In this document: positions 6,961-62,555 of the stretch, in pieces
Position numbering within the stretch: position 1 is the first letter of the stretch
Layout of the letters: every line of letters starts with the position of its first letter
Source of the DNA: Halosolutus gelatinilyticus
GTDB taxonomy: Archaea; Halobacteriota; Halobacteria; Halobacteriales; Natrialbaceae
Length of the DNA: 64,000 bases
Direction: 5' to 3'
NCBI RefSeq assembly: GCF_023028105.1
Contig: NZ_CP095491.1
Span: 2,108,001-2,172,000 of the forward strand
Notes under the pieces: model-generated
Database searches by the model: none
Seen by the model: only the letters and a program-made list of their open reading frames with translations
What the model was told of the DNA's origin: nothing
Program-made: the position numbers and the translations under genes

Positions 6961-8229
6961 TCAGTGATCGATAACGGTGAGCTCCTCGACGGGCCACTGG
7001 CTCAGGATCTCAACGCCGTTCTCGCGGACGACGACCATCTCCTCGACGCGGACGCCCTGCCGATCGGCCGGTTCCTGGGTCTCGACGGCCATCGTCATCC
7101 CCTCTTCGATCTCGATCGGGTGGTCCGGCGAGAGGCCGCGCCAGATCAGCGGCACCTCGTAGAGCTGGAGGCCGAGGCCGTGGGCCCAGTGGTTGGTGGT
7201 CAGCTGCCAGTGTTCGTCGGCGTCGTAGAAGTCGGCGTGCTCGCCTTTCATGTCCGGAAAGCCCTGCGCGATCTCGTCGGTCGTCGCGCCGGGTTCGATC
7301 CGTTCGAGCACGTCGTAGAGGTTGTCGCGGGCGGTCTCGTACGCCTCCCGCTGGGCTTTCGTCGGTTCGCCCATACTAAAGGTGCGGTAGTAGCACGATC
7401 GGTAGCCCAGATAGCCGATGTTGTAGAAATCGGCGTAGACGAGGTCGCCGGGACGGATGGCGCGATCGGTCGTATTGGCCTGGTGTTTCGGCCACGTGTT
7501 GGGACCGGAGGTGAGGTAGCCGCCGCCGACGAACGCGCCGTGGCGCCACAGTTCGCTGACGGCTTCGCCCCAGACCTCGGTTTCGCGCATCCCGGGCTTC
7601 GCGGCGTCTTTGATCGCCTGGAAGCCCGCCTCGCAGATCGACGCGACCATTCGGAGACACTCGATCTCGTCGTCGGTCTTGACCTTCCGGGCGTCGAGCA
7701 TCGCCTCGGAGGCGGCCTCGGTGTCGACCTCGATCCCGCGGTCCTCGAACGCGCGGACGAGGCCGGCGTTCCCGACGTCGATGCCGAGCGTCTCGTCGGC
7801 GACGCCGTACTCATTCATCGCCTCGTGGACGGTTTCGGCCATCGTCGACAGGAGGAACCGGCGGGCCGACGGACTGCCGGAGGCCCGCGGGACGTTTCCG
7901 AGACCCGGGCAGGCGTATCGAATGTCGTGGAGCCACGGGCAGTTGAACCGCTGATTGCTCGCGTGATCGGCGGTATCCCAGTGGACGATATCGCCCGCCT
8001 CGGTCAGCAGCGTGTAGTGGTCGGCGCCGCTGCCGCCGGTCATCGCCAGTCCCGTCACGTAGCGGATGTTGGGGTCCGACACGAGCAGCATCGCGCCGAG
8101 GTCGGTTTCTTGCAGGCGGTCGAGCGCCCGCTCCTTGCGCTCCTCCCTGAGTCGCCGCGTGTCGATCCGTTCCTCCCAGTCGACGGCCTGCGTGCCGCGG
8201 GTTCCCTCCATGAAACGCCGTTCGTCCAT
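6961..8229 (-). CDS. M24-family (creatinase/Xaa-Pro-like) hydrolase
   Basis: This 422-residue protein has the two-domain pita-bread layout: an N-terminal creatinase-like domain (residues 1-170, with NIRYVTGLAMT) and a C-terminal catalytic domain. The catalytic domain keeps AHGLGLQLYEVP (the HG-G-E-P motif) and MTMAVETQ. In the segment where metallo-enzymes have two Asp residues, it reads VYADFYNIGYLGYRSCYYRTF, so the second Asp appears to be missing. That may make it a metal-free, creatinase-type hydrolase rather than a peptidase. I chose ATG 8229 over a GTG ten codons upstream. It shares orientation with the LLM oxidoreductase, 218 bases downstream. Confidence 0.75.
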   Translation of the reverse strand: MDERRFMEGTRGTQAVDWEERIDTRRLREERKERALDRLQETDLGAMLLVSDPNIRYVTGLAMTGGSGADHYTLLTEAGDIVHWDTADHASNQRFNCPWLHDIRYACPGLGNVPRASGSPSARRFLLSTMAETVHEAMNEYGVADETLGIDVGNAGLVRAFEDRGIEVDTEAASEAMLDARKVKTDDEIECLRMVASICEAGFQAIKDAAKPGMRETEVWGEAVSELWRHGAFVGGGYLTSGPNTWPKHQANTTDRAIRPGDLVYADFYNIGYLGYRSCYYRTFSMGEPTKAQREAYETARDNLYDVLERIEPGATTDEIAQGFPDMKGEHADFYDADEHWQLTTNHWAHGLGLQLYEVPLIWRGLSPDHPIEIEEGMTMAVETQEPADRQGVRVEEMVVVRENGVEILSQWPVEELTVIDH

Positions 8230-8304
8230 ACCCACGCGTACTCGGACGACGGTCTTCAATCCGGGTGGTTCGGATGCGATCTCGGTCCGCGCGACGACGG
8301 CGTC

Positions 8305-9138
8305 TCACTGTTCGAGGATCGCGGACACCCGTGCGGATTCGGCAGCCTCGATCGGCCGCGCGCGCGAGCGGTACCGCTCGGACACGGTTCTAGCCCACTC
8401 GATCGACTCGTCCGATTCGATGCACCCGAACCCGCATAGGTGGCCGCGATCCGTGTACGTCGTGATTCCGGCCGTCTCGTCCGGGTCGTCGGCGATCAAC
8501 AGACCGAAGGGAAACGAGTCGCCGACCACCGACACGGCGAAGTCGGGCGATCGAATCAGCGTTCGGCAGTCGGATTCGTGGTGGTCGGCGAGGCGATCGA
8601 GGGTCGTCGACTCGATCACGACGTCGGCCGACAGCCGCCCCGCTTCCAGGTCGTCCCGCAACGCCTCGATCGTTCGTGGATAGACGAGCGCGGCGAGTCC
8701 GGTCACTCGCTCGGCCCGCGCGACCCACTCGAGAAACGCGTTGAGCGGCGCCTCGGGGTTTCGATCCGTCGTGACGACGTCCACGTCGCGGATCACCGGC
8801 GGCGGCGGCCGTTCCTCGGGCGGAACCGCCTCGAGCAACGGCCCGGCGGCGTAAATTCGCTCGGAGAGCGCCGCCGTGTCGCGGTAGAGTTCGGCGTGGA
8901 GCCGTCCCTTGTTCGTGAGGCGATAGCCGTCCGAGACCCGCTCGACGAGGCGGTGGCGCTTCAACTCGCGGGTCTGGTTGTATACCGTCGACTTCGAGAC
9001 GCCGAGCTCCGACGCTAGCTCCCCTTTGTACGTCGCTCCGTCCCGAAGCGTCTCGAGCAGCGGCGCCGACTTCGCGAGACACCGGAGCAAGCAGTCGAAC
9101 GATGGCGGATCGCGTCGGCATGGGGTTCGGTTTGGCAT
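8305..9138 (-). CDS. Winged-helix regulator with FilR1-type domain
   Basis: This 277-residue protein has an N-terminal winged helix (about residues 25-80, ELASELGVSKSTVYNQTRELKRHRLVE) and a C-terminal region (about 110-265, with ADVVIESTTLDRLADHH and FPFGLLIADDP) of the FilR1/DUF1724 type. This type is common among haloarchaeal and methanogen regulators. The ATG at 9138 fits better than upstream starts because the winged helix begins soon after. It is divergent from the exported protein at 9363, with 224 bases between them, so it may control that gene. The ligand is unknown. Confidence 0.75.
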   Translation of the reverse strand: MPNRTPCRRDPPSFDCLLRCLAKSAPLLETLRDGATYKGELASELGVSKSTVYNQTRELKRHRLVERVSDGYRLTNKGRLHAELYRDTAALSERIYAAGPLLEAVPPEERPPPPVIRDVDVVTTDRNPEAPLNAFLEWVARAERVTGLAALVYPRTIEALRDDLEAGRLSADVVIESTTLDRLADHHESDCRTLIRSPDFAVSVVGDSFPFGLLIADDPDETAGITTYTDRGHLCGFGCIESDESIEWARTVSERYRSRARPIEAAESARVSAILEQ

Positions 9139-9362
9139 CGTTGATAGTACCTCCCGAGTAAGCGAAATTAAATGCCTGGTCGGAGCAAAATTCACCACGA
9201 TAGATAAAAATATTTCTCAAGATCCTGTGAGTGCGCTAGGCTATTCGGTGTTCCCCGGAGAATCGGTCAGGGGGGCATAGGGAAGTTAATCTCCCCTGCG
9301 GGGCGGTTATACGGGGACAGGAGGGAAAAATTATAATCATACAGAGATAGAATTTAGTTGTA

Positions 9363-15080: not shown

Positions 15081-15101
15081 TCGTTCGAGTAATTCGAACG
15101 A
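15081..15101. promoter_or_regulatory. Inverted repeat, TYCGA class, upstream of IclR
   Basis: Eight-bp arms TCGTTCGA and their complement flank the spacer GTAAT. The site ends 62 bases before ATG 15164 and about 30 bases upstream of its TATA-like GATTTTTAC. A half-site CGTTCGAATAGCG at 15112 lies between. It is a candidate autoregulatory operator. Confidence 0.6.
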
Positions 15102-15163
15102 ATACGCCGATCGTTCGAATAGCGGGAACAAGATTTTTACCGACGGGTTACGAACCGGGCGGT

Positions 15164-15931
15164 ATGACACAGGACTCGGCGCACAGGCCCGTCGAAACCG
15201 TCGACACGGCCTTCGACATCATCGAGTTGCTCAAGCGGGACGACGGGCTCGGCATCACGGCGATCGCCGACGAACTGGGGCTGGCGAAGAGCACGATCCA
15301 TCGCCACGTGAAGACGCTGGAGTCGCGGGGGCTGCTCGTTCGGGAGGACGACTCCTACCGGATCAGCACCTGGTTCCTCGACTACGGCGTCCACGTTCGC
15401 AACGAGCACACCCCGTTCTCGGTGATCAAGCCGAAAGTGGACGAGCTGGCCGCAGAGACGGACGAGAAGGTCTGGGCCGTGATCGAGGAGCACGGGATGG
15501 GCGTCCACATCTACGGGGCGCAGGGCCGCCACTCCGTCAAGACCCACGCCAGGATCGGCCAGCGGACGCCCCTCCACCAGTTCGCGGCGGGAAAGGCCAT
15601 CCTGGCCCACCTCCCCGACGACCGGATCGACGAGATTCTGGACGAGTACGGCCTTCCCGGACGAACCGATCAGACGATCACCGATCGAGACGACCTGCGC
15701 GACCAACTCGAGACGGTGCGCGACCGCGGATACGCGTTCAACCGAGAGGAATCGGTCGTCGGCGTGCACGCCGTCGGCGCGCCGGTCAGGGACCGGTCGG
15801 GAATCGCCGTGGGCGCGATCAGCATCGCCGGTCCGGCGAACCGGCTCCGAGGGGGGTTGTTGACCGAGGAACTCCCCGATCTGCTGCTCGGGGCGACCAA
15901 CGAGGTCGAGATCAACCTGGCCCACTCCTGA
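15164..15931 (+). CDS. IclR-family transcriptional regulator (second)
   Basis: This 255-residue protein has a winged helix (LAKSTIHRHVKTLESRGLLV, about residues 42-62) and an effector domain (LHQFAAGKAILAHL, ISIAGPANRL). It starts at ATG 15164 with GATTTTTAC about 28 bases before, so it is leaderless. It is similar along its length to the IclR at 1661, including the same TIHRH recognition helix. Palindromes with TTCGA arms flank it on both sides (15081, 15956, 16193), while the 1661 paralogue is followed by TCCGA arms. This suggests two sister regulators with slightly different operators. The nearest possible target is the amidohydrolase ending at 16256. Confidence 0.9.
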   Translation: MTQDSAHRPVETVDTAFDIIELLKRDDGLGITAIADELGLAKSTIHRHVKTLESRGLLVREDDSYRISTWFLDYGVHVRNEHTPFSVIKPKVDELAAETDEKVWAVIEEHGMGVHIYGAQGRHSVKTHARIGQRTPLHQFAAGKAILAHLPDDRIDEILDEYGLPGRTDQTITDRDDLRDQLETVRDRGYAFNREESVVGVHAVGAPVRDRSGIAVGAISIAGPANRLRGGLLTEELPDLLLGATNEVEINLAHS

Positions 15932-15955
15932 GTCGACGGCCCTCGCGGCGATTAT

Positions 15956-15974
15956 CGTTCGAGTAGTTCGAACG
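15956..15974. promoter_or_regulatory. Inverted repeat, TYCGA class
   Basis: CGTTCGA and its complement flank the spacer GTAGT, 25 bases after the IclR stop. Confidence 0.55.
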
Positions 15975-16146
15975 GCTCTGACGAAGGCGTCGCGACCGAC
16001 GCGTACGCTCGCCATCCCCTGGCGGTACGCGGATGCCGTCGGTGCATCTCCGCTCGGTCGCCTCCGGCCCCGTCGCGAATCGATCGGCGACCGAGCGGAC
16101 CCTCCGTACTCAATCGCCGGATACGACGGCCCTCGGGCCGATTTCG

Positions 16147-16166
16147 TTACACACGTACGAATGTAA
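16147..16166. promoter_or_regulatory. TTACR-N10-TGTAA site b
   Basis: TTACACACGTACGAATGTAA is an exact match to the motif, centred on GTAC. It lies 216 bases past the IclR stop and between the two TTCGA-type repeats. Confidence 0.6.
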
Positions 16167-16192
16167 TGGTTTGCTACTTGGGCGATCGCTCG

Positions 16193-16211
16193 CGTTCGAA
16201 CTATTCGAACG
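16193..16211. promoter_or_regulatory. Inverted repeat, TYCGA class (best symmetric copy)
   Basis: CGTTCGAA and its complement flank only CTA; written with the class spacing, this is CGTTCGA-ACTAT-TCGAACG. It lies 45 bases beyond the 3' end of the amidohydrolase. Confidence 0.6.
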
Positions 16212-37254: not shown

Positions 37255-37271
37255 GTTCACGTGTCGTGAAC
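37255..37271. promoter_or_regulatory. GTTCAC-N5-GTGAAC site 2
   Basis: Perfect arms flank the spacer GTGTC, about 105 bases upstream of the sugar operon TATA box, in the divergent control region. Confidence 0.6.
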
Positions 37272-37406
37272 AGCATCGGCACGGCCGTCCCGCGTGGTCT
37301 CACCGCGCGTCCGACGCTCTGCGGGACGGATGGGTGAGTTGCGCTCACACGGGCGCGAGCGCCCGCTCCGTTTCCGCTCGCCGCTGTCGCCCGTCGTCCG
37401 CCCGGA

Positions 37407-37423
37407 GTTCACGATGTATGAAC
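37407..37423. promoter_or_regulatory. GTTCAC-N5-GTGAAC site 3 (one mismatch)
   Basis: GTTCAC-GATGT-ATGAAC abuts the TATA-like AATTATTT of the IclR gene and ends 34 bases before its ATG. This position suggests autorepression. Confidence 0.6.
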
Positions 37424-37456
37424 AATTATTTGTGTACAGCCGACGTTTCCGGTCGT

Positions 37457-38245
37457 ATGACGACCACGGACATTTCCGCGGCGGACGACGGCGGGCCCAC
37501 CGCGAAAACGACGGTCACGAGCTTTCGGCTCATCGAGGCACTGAAGGACCGCGACGGGGCGGGTGTGACCGAACTCGCCGACGACCTCGACCTCGCGAAG
37601 GGGACGGTCCACAAGCACCTCAATACGCTCCGACGGCTCGATTACGTCGTCAAAGACGGCCGCTCGTACCGATTGAGCGTGAGTTTCCTGGGCCTCGGAA
37701 CGAGCGCCCGGGCCCGACTCCCGATCTACGAGGTCGCGGAACGGCCGCTGGAGGACCTCGCGGCGGCGACCGGAGAGGTCGCGAGTCTCATGGTCCCGGA
37801 ACACGGGTACGGTATCTACATCGGCCGGGAGAGCACCGGCGAGCAGTCGGACGTCGACGCGAAGGAGGGGGATCGCCTCCCGCTGCACGCGACCGCGGGC
37901 GGGAAGGCCATCCTCTCGTACACGCCGCCAGCGGACCGGGAGGCCATCGTCGAGTACCGCGGGCTCCCGAAACTAACCGAGAACACCATCACCGACCGCG
38001 ACGCGCTCGAAGACGAACTCCAGCTCACGCGCGATCGCCGGATGGCCTACGACCGGGGCGAGCACCGGGAGGACCGCCACTGCATCGCCTGTCCCATCAC
38101 GGACCGAGATGAACGGGCGATCGCCGCGGTCACCGTCTCCGGCCCGGCCACCAGGATGAAAGAGAAGGACGCGAGCACCGACTTTGCGAGCATCGTCGGG
38201 AGCACGATCAACTCGATCCAGAACGCGCTCAACGACGGCTACTGA
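37457..38245 (+). CDS. IclR-family transcriptional regulator (fourth)
   Basis: This 262-residue protein has a winged helix (LAKGTVHKHLNTLRRLDYVV, about residues 46-65) and an effector domain (LHATAGGKAILSY, VTVSGPATRM). ATG 37457 is about 30 bases past CAATTATTT, so it is leaderless. Upstream in-frame starts would overlap the operator. It is divergent from the sugar ABC/GH4 operon and 140 bases upstream of the sulfatase. GTTCAC-type palindromes lie before all three, so it probably governs them as one regulon. Confidence 0.9.
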   Translation: MTTTDISAADDGGPTAKTTVTSFRLIEALKDRDGAGVTELADDLDLAKGTVHKHLNTLRRLDYVVKDGRSYRLSVSFLGLGTSARARLPIYEVAERPLEDLAAATGEVASLMVPEHGYGIYIGRESTGEQSDVDAKEGDRLPLHATAGGKAILSYTPPADREAIVEYRGLPKLTENTITDRDALEDELQLTRDRRMAYDRGEHREDRHCIACPITDRDERAIAAVTVSGPATRMKEKDASTDFASIVGSTINSIQNALNDGY

Positions 38246-38256
38246 GCGCATCTCGT

Positions 38257-38276
38257 TTACGATCGTACCTCTGTAA
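38257..38276. promoter_or_regulatory. TTACR-N10-TGTAA site d
   Basis: TTACGATCGTACCTCTGTAA is an exact match. Its symmetry extends outward to 7-bp arms (CGTTTAC/GTAAACG, 38254-38279). It lies 12 bases past the IclR stop and 110 bases before the sulfatase start, making it the only copy near a plausible downstream promoter. Confidence 0.6.
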
Positions 38277-38305
38277 ACGTATTTGTGCGCCGGAGCGCGG
38301 CCAGG

Positions 38306-38326
38306 TCGTTCACGCATCGTGAACGA
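38306..38326. promoter_or_regulatory. GTTCAC-N5-GTGAAC site 4
   Basis: Eight-bp perfect arms TCGTTCAC and complement flank GCATC. It ends 24 bases before the sulfatase TATA box ACATATAAGT (38351-38360), itself 26-35 bases before ATG 38386. Confidence 0.65.
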
Positions 38327-38385: not shown

Positions 38386-39726
38386 ATGGACGATCACGAA
38401 CGCCCCAACGTCGTCGCGGTGCTGACCGATCAGCAGCGGTGGGACACGGTCGGCGCGTACGGGTGTCCGCTCGATCTCACTCCGACGATCGATCGACTCG
38501 CGGTGCGAGGCGTCGCCCTGAAACAGGCGATAACGCCGCAACCGCTGTGCGGGCCGTTCCGTGCGACGTTCCAGAGCGGGAAGTACCCGACCGAGGTCGA
38601 CTCCTGGCGCAACGCGATGCCGGTCCCGACCGACGAACTGCGCCTCTCCCGGCGATTTAAGGACGCCGGCTACGACGCCGGGTTCGTGGGAAACTGGCAC
38701 GCCGCCGGAACGTTCGACAAGCCCGTCCCCCCGGAGCGCCGCGGCGGCTACGAGGACTTCTGGATCGCGGCGGACGTCCCGGAGTTCACGTCCTACCCCG
38801 AGGAGGGCACCCTGTTCGACGCGGACGGCGATCCGGTTGAGTTCGACCAGTATCGCGCGGACGCGTTCACCGAGTACGCGCGCGAAGCCGTCGAGACGCT
38901 GTCGGAACCGTTCTTCCTCGTGATCTCGTACGTCGAACCGCACAATCAAAACGACATGTGGACGTTCGTCGCGCCGGACGGATACGCGGAGCGGCACGAA
39001 AAAACGCCGTACGTCCCGGGGGATCTGCAGAACCGACCCGGCGATTGGTACGGGGAACTGCCGGATTACTACGGAATGGTCGAGCGGATCGACGAGTGTG
39101 TCGACGATCTGCTCGGCGCGCTGTCGGAGCGCGGCGTCCGCGATCGGACGGTCGTCGCGTACGCGTCCGATCACGGGTGTCACTTCCGGACGCGGCCGGG
39201 CGAGTACAAACGGTCCCCCCACGAATCCGCCGTCCGGGTTCCCGCGATCCTCTCGGGGCCGGGTTTCGACGGCGGGACCGACGTCGAGCGCGCGACGAGC
39301 CTCGTTGACCTCCCGCCGACTCTCCTCGACGCGGCGGGGATCGACGCCCCGGACGAGATGCACGGCGAGAGCCTCCTGCCGGTCGTTCGACGGGACGTTC
39401 CCGACGAGGACGGCGAGGCGTTCGTCCAGATCAGCGAGTCGCAGGTCGGACGGGCGCTCCGAACCGATCGCTGGAAGTACGCCGTCGCGGCGCCGTCGCC
39501 GACCGGCTGGCGCGGGGGCAGCGCCGAGAAGTCGAGCGAGGTCTACGTCGAACGCTACCTCTACGACCTCGAGCGCGATCCGCACGAACGGGTTAACCTC
39601 GTCGGTCGACCGGACTTTCGAACCGTCGCGGACGACCTCCGCGATCGGTTGCTGGCGCACGTCGAGCGGATCGAGGGCGAGTCCCCCGACGTCAAGCCGT
39701 ACGAGAACGGATACAGCGCGTTTTGA
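38386..39726 (+). CDS. Sulfatase (formylglycine-type, alkaline phosphatase superfamily)
   Basis: This 446-residue type I sulfatase starts with the metal-binding NVVAVLTDQQRWDTVGAYG. Its CGPFR at residues 55-59 matches the CxPxR motif whose Cys is converted to formylglycine by a separate enzyme. YASDHGCHF carries later metal ligands. No signal peptide is visible, so it acts in the cytoplasm, desulfating imported sugars. It carries its own leaderless promoter with a GTTCAC-type operator upstream and follows the fourth IclR. It probably works with the GH4 glycosidase on sulfated oligosaccharides. Confidence 0.9.
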   Translation: MDDHERPNVVAVLTDQQRWDTVGAYGCPLDLTPTIDRLAVRGVALKQAITPQPLCGPFRATFQSGKYPTEVDSWRNAMPVPTDELRLSRRFKDAGYDAGFVGNWHAAGTFDKPVPPERRGGYEDFWIAADVPEFTSYPEEGTLFDADGDPVEFDQYRADAFTEYAREAVETLSEPFFLVISYVEPHNQNDMWTFVAPDGYAERHEKTPYVPGDLQNRPGDWYGELPDYYGMVERIDECVDDLLGALSERGVRDRTVVAYASDHGCHFRTRPGEYKRSPHESAVRVPAILSGPGFDGGTDVERATSLVDLPPTLLDAAGIDAPDEMHGESLLPVVRRDVPDEDGEAFVQISESQVGRALRTDRWKYAVAAPSPTGWRGGSAEKSSEVYVERYLYDLERDPHERVNLVGRPDFRTVADDLRDRLLAHVERIEGESPDVKPYENGYSAF

Positions 39727-39797
39727 CGCTCTCAAACGCTCCCCGCCGATCCGACTTGCGCTCCGCTCTCGCACCAGTCGCCGTACGACGAATCCTA

Positions 39798-39817
39798 TTA
39801 CACCAGCACTGGTGTAA
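39798..39817. promoter_or_regulatory. TTACR-N10-TGTAA site e
   Basis: TTACACCAGCACTGGTGTAA is the most symmetric copy: nine-bp perfect arms around CA. It lies between the 3' ends of the sulfatase and the frameshifted IclR, where no gene start is expected. Confidence 0.6.
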
Positions 39818-39976
39818 ATGGCCGCGTTCGTCCCGTCGAGGGACGAGCCGTCTCTCGAGATCGCTTCGCGTGCTCGTTTCGACGCCCCGCCGAACGCGGA
39901 TCGATCCGATTCCCACGAGCGTCGCGATCGCACTGGAACGATTCCCGGCCGTTTACGAGTCGCAAACACTGGCCGA

Positions 39977-40767
39977 TCAGGAGAACTTCGTGTTGATCTC
40001 GATGACGTTCGCGGATCGCATCGCCCGCTCGGGGGAGGTACTCGCGCTTGCCGATCGCCGGTCATACGACTCGACGGCCCGGAGATGCTCACCGCTCCGA
40101 GAACCTCGTGTTTGCCGGCTTTCACGGGCGCGGCGACGCACCGAAGCCCCTCGATCTTCTCCTCGTCGTCGAACGCGTACCCGCGTTCGCGGATCGCCTC
40201 CAGCTCCTCGAAGAGGGGTTCGCGAGCGGTGATCGTCTTGTCCGTGTACGCGGGAAGTCCGTGTTCGTCGATGATCTCCTCGACCCGCTCTCGGGGGTAG
40301 TGAGCGAGGATCGCCTTGCCCAGCGAGATGCAGTGGCGGTACTCGCGCTTGCCGATCGACGAGGCCGTCTGCACCGCGCGGTCGACGCCTTTCTTGTACA
40401 GGTAGACCGCGCGGCCGTGTTCTTCGGTCACAAACTGCACGAGCTCGTCGCACTCCGCGGCCAGGTCGTCCAGTTCGCTGGTGCCGATGTCGTGGATTCC
40501 GAGGCGGTCCTTGACGCCCTCGCCGAGCTCCAGGTACCGAAGCCCGAGCGTGTACTGGTCGCCGTCTTTGACGACGTACTCGGTTTCGATGAGCGTGGCG
40601 AGGTGGCAGTGGATGGTTCCTTTCGACCAGTCGAGTTCGGTCGCGATCTCGGTGAGCCGGGCGCCGTTGTTCTCGTGAAGGAAGTCGATGATATCGAGCG
40701 TGGTCGCCACGGCCTGAATCGTTCGGGGGATTCCGTTCCGGCCATACTTTCCGATGCGCCCCGCCAC
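39977..40767 (-). pseudogene. IclR-family regulator with C-terminal frameshift (fifth)
   Basis: The reading frame runs from a GTG near 40767 (TTG 40788 is possible). It gives a normal IclR winged helix (LDWSKGTIHCHLATLIETEYV) and effector domain up to AVSISGPSSRMTGDR. It then shifts; the proper ending PERAMRSANVIEINTKFS is in another frame and stops at 39977. The shift lies between about 40031 and 40055, beside a run of five G (40031-40035). Without it the frame reads on for more than 500 meaningless codons. It may be a real mutation or a sequencing error in the homopolymer. It converges on the sulfatase. Confidence 0.75.
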
Positions 40768-40866
40768 AAAATTGTTTGCATCTCTCAAGCGATGCGCGGG
40801 TTTGCGAGCTTCAAACGATCCCGGCGATCGGTCCCCGGATATTCGAGTCTCGCCGCCGACCGGACG

Positions 40867-41091
40867 TCAGTTGTCGTAGTTCGAGTCCTGCCAGTCGATG
40901 AGGTCATCCCACATACCGTCGCGCTGTTTGGCTAATTCGACGTTGCTCTCGTCGACGACCGCAACCCCGGTGGTGAAGTCCTTCATCGGGATTCCACGCT
41001 CCATGTACATCCACGCCAGTTGCGTCGGGAAGTAGCCCTGGCTGTATCCGTCCTGACCGGTCGAGAAGTCGAGGTAACCGCGCTCGATCGC
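40867..41091 (-). pseudogene. C-terminal remnant of a sugar ABC substrate-binding protein
   Basis: On the minus strand, codons from 41091 down to TGA 40867-40869 read AIERGYLDFSTGQDGYSQGY and then FPTQLAWMYMERGIPMKDF, ending DWQDSNYDN. This is the C-terminal end of a periplasmic-binding-protein-like (RbsB type) sugar receptor. There is no start codon and the frame hits an in-frame TAA directly upstream. That TAA is the edge of TTACR site f, so the break coincides with the motif. The rest of the gene and its transporter partners are missing from the window. Confidence 0.7.
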
Positions 41092-41111
41092 TTACGGGCG
41101 TGTGGTTGTAA
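41092..41111. promoter_or_regulatory. TTACR-N10-TGTAA site f, at a gene break
   Basis: TTACGGGCGTGTGGTTGTAA is an exact motif match that abuts the truncated binding-protein gene. It ends in GGTTGTAA, as do sites g and h, and has the same orientation as g. Confidence 0.55.
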
Positions 41112-41210
41112 TCGCCTCCGAAGGACGATCGGTTATCCGGTCCACTCGTTTACGACGATCAAACGGCGGTGCAGGATCGATCGTCCTGTAACACCGAGAC
41201 CGCAGCGGTC

Positions 41211-41969
41211 CTAGAACCCGCCTTCGTCGAGGACTACCGGGATCCCCCGCTTGGCGACGTCGGCGGCGAACGCCGCGGAGTCCGATTCGAGGTCGCCGAA
41301 AGTGTTGTAGTGGATCGGGAGGACGGCCTCCGCGTCGAGCGCCTCGGCGAGGTCGGCGGCGTCGTGACGATCCATCGTGAAGTTCGTCGCGATCGACGGG
41401 AGGAACACGGAGACGTCGAAGTCGTAGTGGTCGTCGATCACGTCGGAGTCGCCGGGCCAGAAGCAGGGGACGCCGTCGATCGTCACGACGAACCCGCACC
41501 CGAGTCCCTCGGGATGGAGCGGCTCTCCGTCGGTGGCGTTCTTCCCGTCCGGGTGGTTGAACGCCCGCGTCACCTCGATCTCGACGCCGTCGATCGCCAG
41601 CTCGTCGCCGTACGCGACGCGGCGGACGTCGTACGGAAGGGATTCCGGGTCGCGGACGTCGCGCCCGCTGTTCTCGCGGACGCCCTCGGCCGAGACGCCC
41701 TCGTAGACGACGATCGTCGCGTCCTCCCCGGCGACGCGTTCGATCCCGTCATCGTCGTAGTGGTGATCGTGCGTTACGACGACGATATCGCCGTCCTGCG
41801 CGTCGTAAGGCCCGCCGGACGGGTGCTCCCGATCGCCGTACTCGCGCTCCCACTCGCCGGTGAGGACGCCGTACCGACCGGGATCGGTGTAGACGATCGC
41901 GTCGTCGCCCGCGAGTCGCGCCGTTGCGTAGCCGAGCCACCGGACGGAGAGTCCGTCGAGTCGTACCAT
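41211..41969 (-). CDS. Metallo-beta-lactamase-fold hydrolase (UlaG-like)
   Basis: This 252-residue protein has an MBL-type fold: WLGYATARLAGDDAIVYTDP at the start, VVVTHDHHYDDDG as the metal motif, a mid-protein GCGFVVTIDGVPCFWPGDSD and LPIHYNTFG near the end. The metal motif differs from the common HxHxDH by an extra His and an Asp at the last position. UlaG-like members hydrolyse lactones or phosphorylated lactones, which would fit sugar catabolism, but the substrate is unproven. ATG 41969 is used. TTACR sites f and g flank it in direct orientation. Confidence 0.78.
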   Translation of the reverse strand: MVRLDGLSVRWLGYATARLAGDDAIVYTDPGRYGVLTGEWEREYGDREHPSGGPYDAQDGDIVVVTHDHHYDDDGIERVAGEDATIVVYEGVSAEGVRENSGRDVRDPESLPYDVRRVAYGDELAIDGVEIEVTRAFNHPDGKNATDGEPLHPEGLGCGFVVTIDGVPCFWPGDSDVIDDHYDFDVSVFLPSIATNFTMDRHDAADLAEALDAEAVLPIHYNTFGDLESDSAAFAADVAKRGIPVVLDEGGF

Positions 41970-42332
41970 ATCTTGCCTCTCACGTCGCGGGGTAAAAGAA
42001 GCTTCCCTTCGTGAGAACGGACGCGTCGCGACTTCGATCGCCGAACCCCTGTCGCGGCTTCCGGCGGGCGCTTGTACGTTCTCTTCGAGCGGTGCCACAC
42101 CGCGACCAGGTACGGCACGGCCACGCGCTCGACGAACGTGGCAACGTCGGCCGCTCCCTCGGCACGTTCACCGCCCTCCGAGCGGGTAGAACGCCCGCCG
42201 AGCGAGTAGAATCGAAGGCCGAGTGATTTTCGGTCGTTCGTGTCGATCGACGGATCGCGGGTCCGTTGGTACGAGCGTCGCTGACGATACGCAACCCAGG
42301 TAATAACGACTGAGATAACGCGAGCCGAGTAG

Positions 42333-42352
42333 TTACGCTCATACGGTTGTAA
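42333..42352. promoter_or_regulatory. TTACR-N10-TGTAA site g
   Basis: TTACGCTCATACGGTTGTAA is an exact match, centred on ATAC. It lies 364 bases upstream of the MBL gene start and in the same orientation as site f on the other side of that gene. Confidence 0.55.
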
Positions 42353-42658
42353 AAAGTCTCGAACGGGACACATTACGATCGGGCAGCGTATCCTGCTCTG
42401 TTCCGCGCCGGGGATAGAACTCCGAGAAATGGGGCGTGTTCGGGGCACAGACGATCGCATCAGTTAGTGACGGTGATCCGTACGCGCCGCGTTATCCGTC
42501 ATCGCCGGAAACAGGTCGAGACGGGCTGCACGCCGGGATCAGCCGTGCGATCGGATACGCGGCGGAAATCCTGGCGCCGCTCGGTTTGCGTAGTGGATCG
42601 AGCCACCGCGCGAACGGCTTGATCGCGCACGGCCGATTCGCCGTCCGGAGGCCTCCTG

Positions 42659-42677
42659 TCGCCCGTTGAACGGGCGA
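42659..42677. repeat. Perfect palindrome with 9-bp arms
   Basis: TCGCCCGTT and its complement AACGGGCGA flank a single G. There is no adjacent gene or T-run, so its role (operator, hairpin or remnant) is open. Confidence 0.5.
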
Positions 42678-43114
42678 ATCGATCGTCGCGATCGAATCCG
42701 ACAATGCCGGATACGGCGTTCCGATTCCTGCCGATGTAGTTACTACCTGCGACGGATCAGTAATACAAAAGCGCGATGGCGTTCGGATATTGGTCTGCCG
42801 ACGATTTTCACGAGCGATATCGTGGAGAACGAGCGTCGAAGTCGCGGAGTCTGCAGAGCTCACCCCGAGGCGACGGGGAGTAGTTCTTCCGGCATCACCG
42901 GAAATCAGTTTTACCGCCGGACGACGGCGGTTTCGCGATCGTTCCGGTCACCGACAGCGTCCCCTTCTCGTGTTCGTCGCGGTACGCCGCTCGCTGTCCG
43001 TCCTCGATCCGAAGGTAAAACGCGATTCGCTTCATACGGACCCCGGTTCGGCGAGGCCGGGATTAGTTCTTTTGTCGGGAAGGTTTACTACGATGACCAC
43101 ACAACTGTCTTCGT

Positions 43115-62176: not shown

Positions 62177-62555
62177 GAGTCCGGCACAACCGGACACTCG
62201 CCTTCGGCCGTCTCTGGCTACTCTCTTCCGTTCGACGATAAGTATCGTTCACCGATCGGTTCTGTTACACGCGTATGGTTGTAACACGTTCCGCGATACA
62301 TGGTCTGCTCGAGCCGCTAAATCCGGCGCTGCCGGACGCGCTACCGATCGGATAGGGATGTCGCACGGTTGCTGCCGGTCTGCGTCTGACGCCGTGTCGA
62401 ACTACTGATGTATGATCTACCGATCGCCCGAGAGCCGACGATTCTCGCCGTGGTTCACCGAAGTCGGTGTCTAGCGTTCTCTCGTCTGGTACGGTATTCG
62501 TCTCCGCTACCGACGGGCGGTAAAACGGTCTTTCGACGAAACGGCCGCGTCGCGA
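62177..62555. other. Convergent intergenic region with site h
   Basis: The region lies between the IclR pseudogene and the 3' end of the SMC-related gene. It contains TTACR site h (62265). I see no gene. Confidence 0.5.
62265..62284. promoter_or_regulatory. TTACR-N10-TGTAA site h
   Basis: TTACACGCGTATGGTTGTAA is an exact match with the symmetry extending to TGTTACA/TGTAACA (62263-62286). It lies 89 bases past the end of the IclR pseudogene. Confidence 0.6.

Follow-up and report, generated by a model that had tools for sequence, protein, structure and literature searches.

Introduction

The IclR-family activators XacR, RhcR, GacR and MscR of haloarchaea are named in PMC11519228. For bacterial IclR operators, two consensus sequences have been published, GKTYCRYW3-4RYGRAMC for group 1 and TGRAACAN1-2TGTTYCA for group 2 (PMC8222616). 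The locus of Halosolutus gelatinilyticus described here lies in a window, the whole analysed stretch of DNA, of 64,000 nucleotides. It resembles IclR-family operators in that palindromes of 17–20 bp lie close to IclR genes and sugar-catabolism operons. In length, its 17-bp GTT..AAC dyads match the group 1 sites of bacteria, whereas neither published consensus corresponds to its 20-bp palindrome TTACR-N10-YGTAA, hereafter TTACR (PMC8222616). A further difference from known IclR operators is the presence of one TTACR element beside dyads varying among IclR paralogs. A literature search found no description of a TTACR-type motif in haloarchaea.

The locus also shares a partial gene, a frameshifted regulator, a lost target and a putative operator losing its core with ordinary pseudogenes accompanied by orphaned sites. 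Unlike in these, one end of the presumed deletion meets the edge of an operator, although chance suffices as a mechanism.

Results

TTACR palindromes in the genome and in the family

The window contains seven copies of TTACR, with 0.07 expected, and the genome contains 56 copies of TTACR-N10-YGTAA, compared with three of the reversed control pattern. Alignment of 53 genome sites gave the consensus TTACR-NNN-RTAY-NNN-YGTAA, in which the central RTAY emerged without having been specified (T in 52 and A in 49 of the 53 sites). Only five of these sites depart from the RTAY core, and sites e and f of the locus are two of them. With the core fixed, 1,588 copies were found in 125 genomes of the family, while the control pattern was found 0 or 1 times per genome. 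The number of copies per genome correlates with the number of IclR_C genes, counted in each genome among the matches listed (the best 25), with a Spearman coefficient of 0.85, or 0.74 after removal of genome size; the genomes are related, and therefore the P-values are not independent.

None of 35 TTACR sites on contig C2 (562 kb, 77% coding) lies inside a predicted gene, and 46% of the sites on this contig are located less than 1 kb from an IclR gene, as compared with 10% of random positions. Window sites d and e recur next to orthologous IclR genes in other genera. The element is thus palindromic, conserved, intergenic and close to regulator and target genes, all properties of a regulatory element. 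Judging from sequence, the TTACR palindromes are putative regulatory elements accompanying IclR genes, not cassette ends.

At least 35 of the 56 sites, together with 19 IclR-like genes, are located on contig C2, which is far denser in them than the main contig. TTACR sites occur shortly 3' of most IclR genes of the window (2585, 16147, 30293, 38257, 39798 and 62265), unlike on C2, where they are mostly 5' of the IclR gene.

The density of TTACR per base is about equal in convergent and divergent gaps, which counts against simple promoter operators, as these would not predict such a density in convergent gaps. Some of the convergent-gap sites may be orphans or result from gene-calling errors. 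Convergent-gap sites were found in the window at 16147, 30293, 39798 and 62265 and on C2 at 89786, 152823, 361146, 387285 and 552707.

Truncated genes of the locus

The features of the locus are listed in Table 1.

Table 1. Genes, gene remnants and palindromic elements around sites e, f and g (positions in the window).
Feature	Position	Strand	Remarks
TTACR palindrome, site e	39798..39817	.	Broken core; between two convergent 3' ends; counterparts in relatives
IclR2 dyad directly after the IclR2 stop codon	39951..39967	.	Conserved in orthologous loci
IclR2, IclR-family regulator	39977..40788	-	C-terminal frameshift, probable pseudogene; orthologs 70-80% aa
IclR2 dyad upstream of IclR2	40800..40816	.	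GTTTGCGAGCTTCAAAC; weaker copy at 40774-40790
Truncated ABC sugar-binding-protein gene (pseudogene)	40867..41091	-	C-terminal 74 codons; 82% aa to intact 407-aa ortholog
TTACR palindrome, site f	41092..41111	.	TTACGGGCGTGTGGTTGTAA; broken core (GTGT for RTAY); probable orphaned operator element
IclR2-type dyad, putative remnant of the binding-protein promoter	41148..41164	.	GTTTACGACGATCAAAC; one change from GTTTG-N7-CAAAC
MBL-fold hydrolase gene (Lactamase_B_3), probable ordinary neighbour	41211..41969	-	
TTACR palindrome, site g	42333..42352	.	TTACGCTCATACGGTTGTAA; probably of the mutarotase/amidohydrolase block; comparable site or near-site in G087 and G109
Remnant of a rhamnose-mutarotase-type gene	42967..43037	-	N-terminal ~23 codons; cut without TTACR; intact in G087 and G109

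The minus-strand frame 41091-40867 encodes the C-terminal 74 amino acids of an ABC sugar-binding protein of about 400 amino acids. An intact ortholog of 406-407 amino acids (82% identity at the amino acid and 73% at the nucleotide level) is present in Natronococcus sp. A-GB1 (G128), a relative within the family Natrialbaceae; other full-length homologs of about 400 amino acids were found in the same genome (54%) and in G020 and G006 (57-58%). A Pfam search with the 74-amino-acid remnant alone gave no match.

The initial annotation had placed the loss of frame at position 41091, with an in-frame stop contributed by site f, and alignment to the intact ortholog confirmed this. The DNA alignment reaches 41091/41092 and ends there, which places the cut at the edge of f with a precision of about 1-3 bp. 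Across the break, the G128 protein reads ...NNATLGAIEQ, and the minus strand of the window reads ...CCGTAA followed, beyond the break, by GCGATCGAG. The codon preceding the remnant is TAA, built from the first three bases of site f; this stop is nothing more than the TAA that ends every TTACR palindrome. In the intact G128 ortholog, TTACR-like sites occur in the promoter only and are absent from the position of the break (a comparison between species). The observation that the gene is cut at a TTACR site is sharp and correct, and its cause is ordinary, namely gene decay.

The mutarotase remnant is a second truncated gene at the locus, not mentioned in the initial annotation. Between it and the MBL-fold gene, at 41970-42966, a search for gene relics against 125 family genomes gave short chance matches only; matches obtained with tblastx were rejected, as they rested on sum statistics and were not credible.

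IclR2 and its dyads

A second palindrome, GTTTG-N7-CAAAC, was found around IclR2, with one copy upstream of the gene and one right after its stop codon. In most relatives, a further copy lies 55-65 bp from the TTACR that precedes the next gene. A search of 560 kb of C2 gave no exact match to GTTTG-N7-CAAAC. At most of the relatives' IclR2 loci, counterparts of site e precede the next gene, and the catabolic gene that follows the downstream site of IclR2 in most relatives is absent here. Comparison with orthologs predicts an ATG for IclR2 that is not in frame with the gene body. Since IclR2 is frameshifted and the next gene is lost, sites e and f are probably orphans whose cores are starting to decay.

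A 21-base sequence occurs twice, without mismatch, in IclR2 (40037-40057 and 40338-40358): the frameshifted part at the C-terminal end duplicates a segment lying 300 bp upstream in this gene. Repeats in the IclR2 orthologs do not exceed 12 bases. The 21-base repeat resembles the trace that a templated repair error would leave.

The stop codon of the neighbouring sulfatase gene lies within the dyad TTTTGA..TCAAAC (39720-39738), and the G131 sulfatase gene also has this dyad at its end. A junction between the sulfatase block and the IclR2 block at the dyad 39721-39737 was considered and rejected: the sulfatase gene of this relative likewise ends in a TTTTGA..TCAAAC stretch, and the dyad accordingly belongs to the sulfatase end.

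Sites f and g and the MBL-fold gene

Sites f and g lie where the initial annotation had located them, share the end GGTTGTAA and enclose the MBL-fold gene. The end GGTTGTAA also occurs in the window site 62265-62284 and in several more sites of the genome. The two sites had further been described as having the same orientation; their positions are correct, but the orientation carries little meaning, because both are near-palindromes. Beyond the intact mutarotase gene, a TTACR site is present in G087 and a near-site in G109, so site g most likely belongs to the mutarotase block and is unrelated to f.

Homologs of the MBL-fold gene (70-72% identity) were found in five relatives, and no TTACR sites were detected at the ends of these genes. 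A search for tyrosine recombinases (PF00589) gave none in the window, the nearest on the contig being more than 70 kb outside. Among 146 flanks of 73 sites, a coding remnant that is strong up to the edge of the site was found only at f.

The promoter of the intact binding-protein gene

The promoter of the binding-protein gene in G128 contains three GTTTG-N7-CAAAC dyads (8759, 8884 and 9242) and two TTACR-like sites (9125 and 9175). In the window, the gap from f to the stop codon of the MBL-fold gene contains the dyad 41148-41164, 36 bp from f. Matches of equal quality number 11 in 560 kb, or about 0.02 per kb, which gives an expectation of about 0.002 in a gap of 100 bp. The order of dyad and TTACR is identical in the window and in G128, with a spacing of 36 bp and 47 bp, respectively, measured in G128 from the distal dyad. 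Motifs aside, DNA similarity between the gap and the G128 promoter was not above that of shuffled controls; the descent of f is thus read from motif order and spacing. In G128, a distance of 14 kb separates the binding-protein gene from IclR2, which has the opposite orientation; this implies at least one rearrangement besides a deletion.

Dyads at other IclR genes

Dyads of 17 bp were also found at other IclR genes of the window: GTTCGA-N5-TCGAAC at 15083, 15957 and 16194, GTTCAC-N5-GTGAAC at 37255 and 38308, and dyads of the TCCGA/TCGGA type at 2539 and 2776. A 17-bp dyad is present within 300 bp, mostly within 100 bp, of 26 of 53 TTACR sites of the genome, as compared with 18% of random intergenic positions. 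Apparently regulator-specific dyads near the common TTACR palindrome are found in the window at 2539-2792, 15083-16210, 37255-38324 and 39951-41164.

Discussion

Site f is most likely the binding-protein gene's own operator, joined to about codon 333 by a deletion of about 1.5 kb, as the order and spacing of the motifs suggest. In the proposed sequence of events, IclR2 would have controlled the binding-protein gene through a promoter with GTTTR-N7-CAAAC dyads and TTACR palindromes, elements that presumably bind proteins, and f together with the dyad 41148 would represent the distal part of this promoter. A single deletion of about 1.5 kb, a size estimated from the intact G128 locus (7659 to 9174), would have taken out codons 1-332 together with the proximal promoter, fusing the dyad and f to the last 74 codons. 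The MBL-fold gene would be an ordinary neighbour, and g would belong to the adjacent mutarotase/amidohydrolase block. As an explanation of the whole locus, a decaying sugar-utilisation regulon with an internal deletion in the binding-protein gene appears likely to us. The initial annotation had offered, as a fallback, that the gene had decayed by chance next to its own operator; this fits the evidence, as the G128 promoter has both elements and the dyad survives near f. A break within 2 bp of the edge of a site is expected by chance in about 3% of cases, a rough and post hoc estimate for a random end in a 600-bp promoter with two sites, so that no special mechanism is needed.

The same arrangement could have arisen without an internal deletion, if the promoter of a different member of the IclR2 regulon, carrying TTACR and a dyad, had been fused by rearrangement to the 3' end of the binding-protein gene. 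The gene order, unlike that of G128, and the occurrence of the same pair of elements at several promoters of the IclR2 regulon speak for such a fusion, but it requires an extra partner, and order and spacing already match the gene's own promoter; we consider it unlikely. The meeting of the break and the site edge within 1-3 bp would be expected if TTACR sites, perhaps through a bound protein, were preferred points of breakage or of arrested repair, and the break at f were not a matter of chance. This is a single case, the other 145 site flanks lack a comparable coding remnant, and the neighbouring break in the mutarotase gene has no site, which makes a preferred breakpoint very improbable.

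The leading proposal of the initial annotation, that the MBL segment is a cassette whose insertion or excision took place at f and g, recognised by a site-specific recombinase, drew on the two sites flanking the MBL-fold gene and on the gene cut at f. It is hardly credible in view of the MBL homologs without flanking sites in five relatives, the family-wide occurrence of the motif as an intergenic, apparently regulatory element tied to IclR genes, and the distance to the nearest tyrosine recombinase. Sites f and g also differ at many variable positions, and in relatives a site or near-site occupies a position like that of g, where no MBL gene is located. The other gene beside the MBL segment is cut without TTACR, and no flank other than that of f abuts a clear gene fragment.

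Ordinary decay of the regulon takes the place of a tempting but wrong story of a mobile cassette. More interesting than the gene break itself is the shared TTACR beside IclR-specific dyads. The apparent presence at each IclR gene of its own 17-bp dyad near a common TTACR suggests a two-part operator code. In IclR-controlled promoters of Natrialbaceae, a regulator-specific 17-bp dyad might be combined with the common 20-bp TTACR, the latter being read by a putative global regulator or reflecting a property shared by IclR paralogs; we put this forward tentatively, at slightly less than an even chance. A shared factor other than IclR may bind the common element. The sites point to a testable regulatory grammar of haloarchaeal catabolic genes across the family, which could reveal a global regulator and make the regulon of each IclR paralog predictable from sequence.
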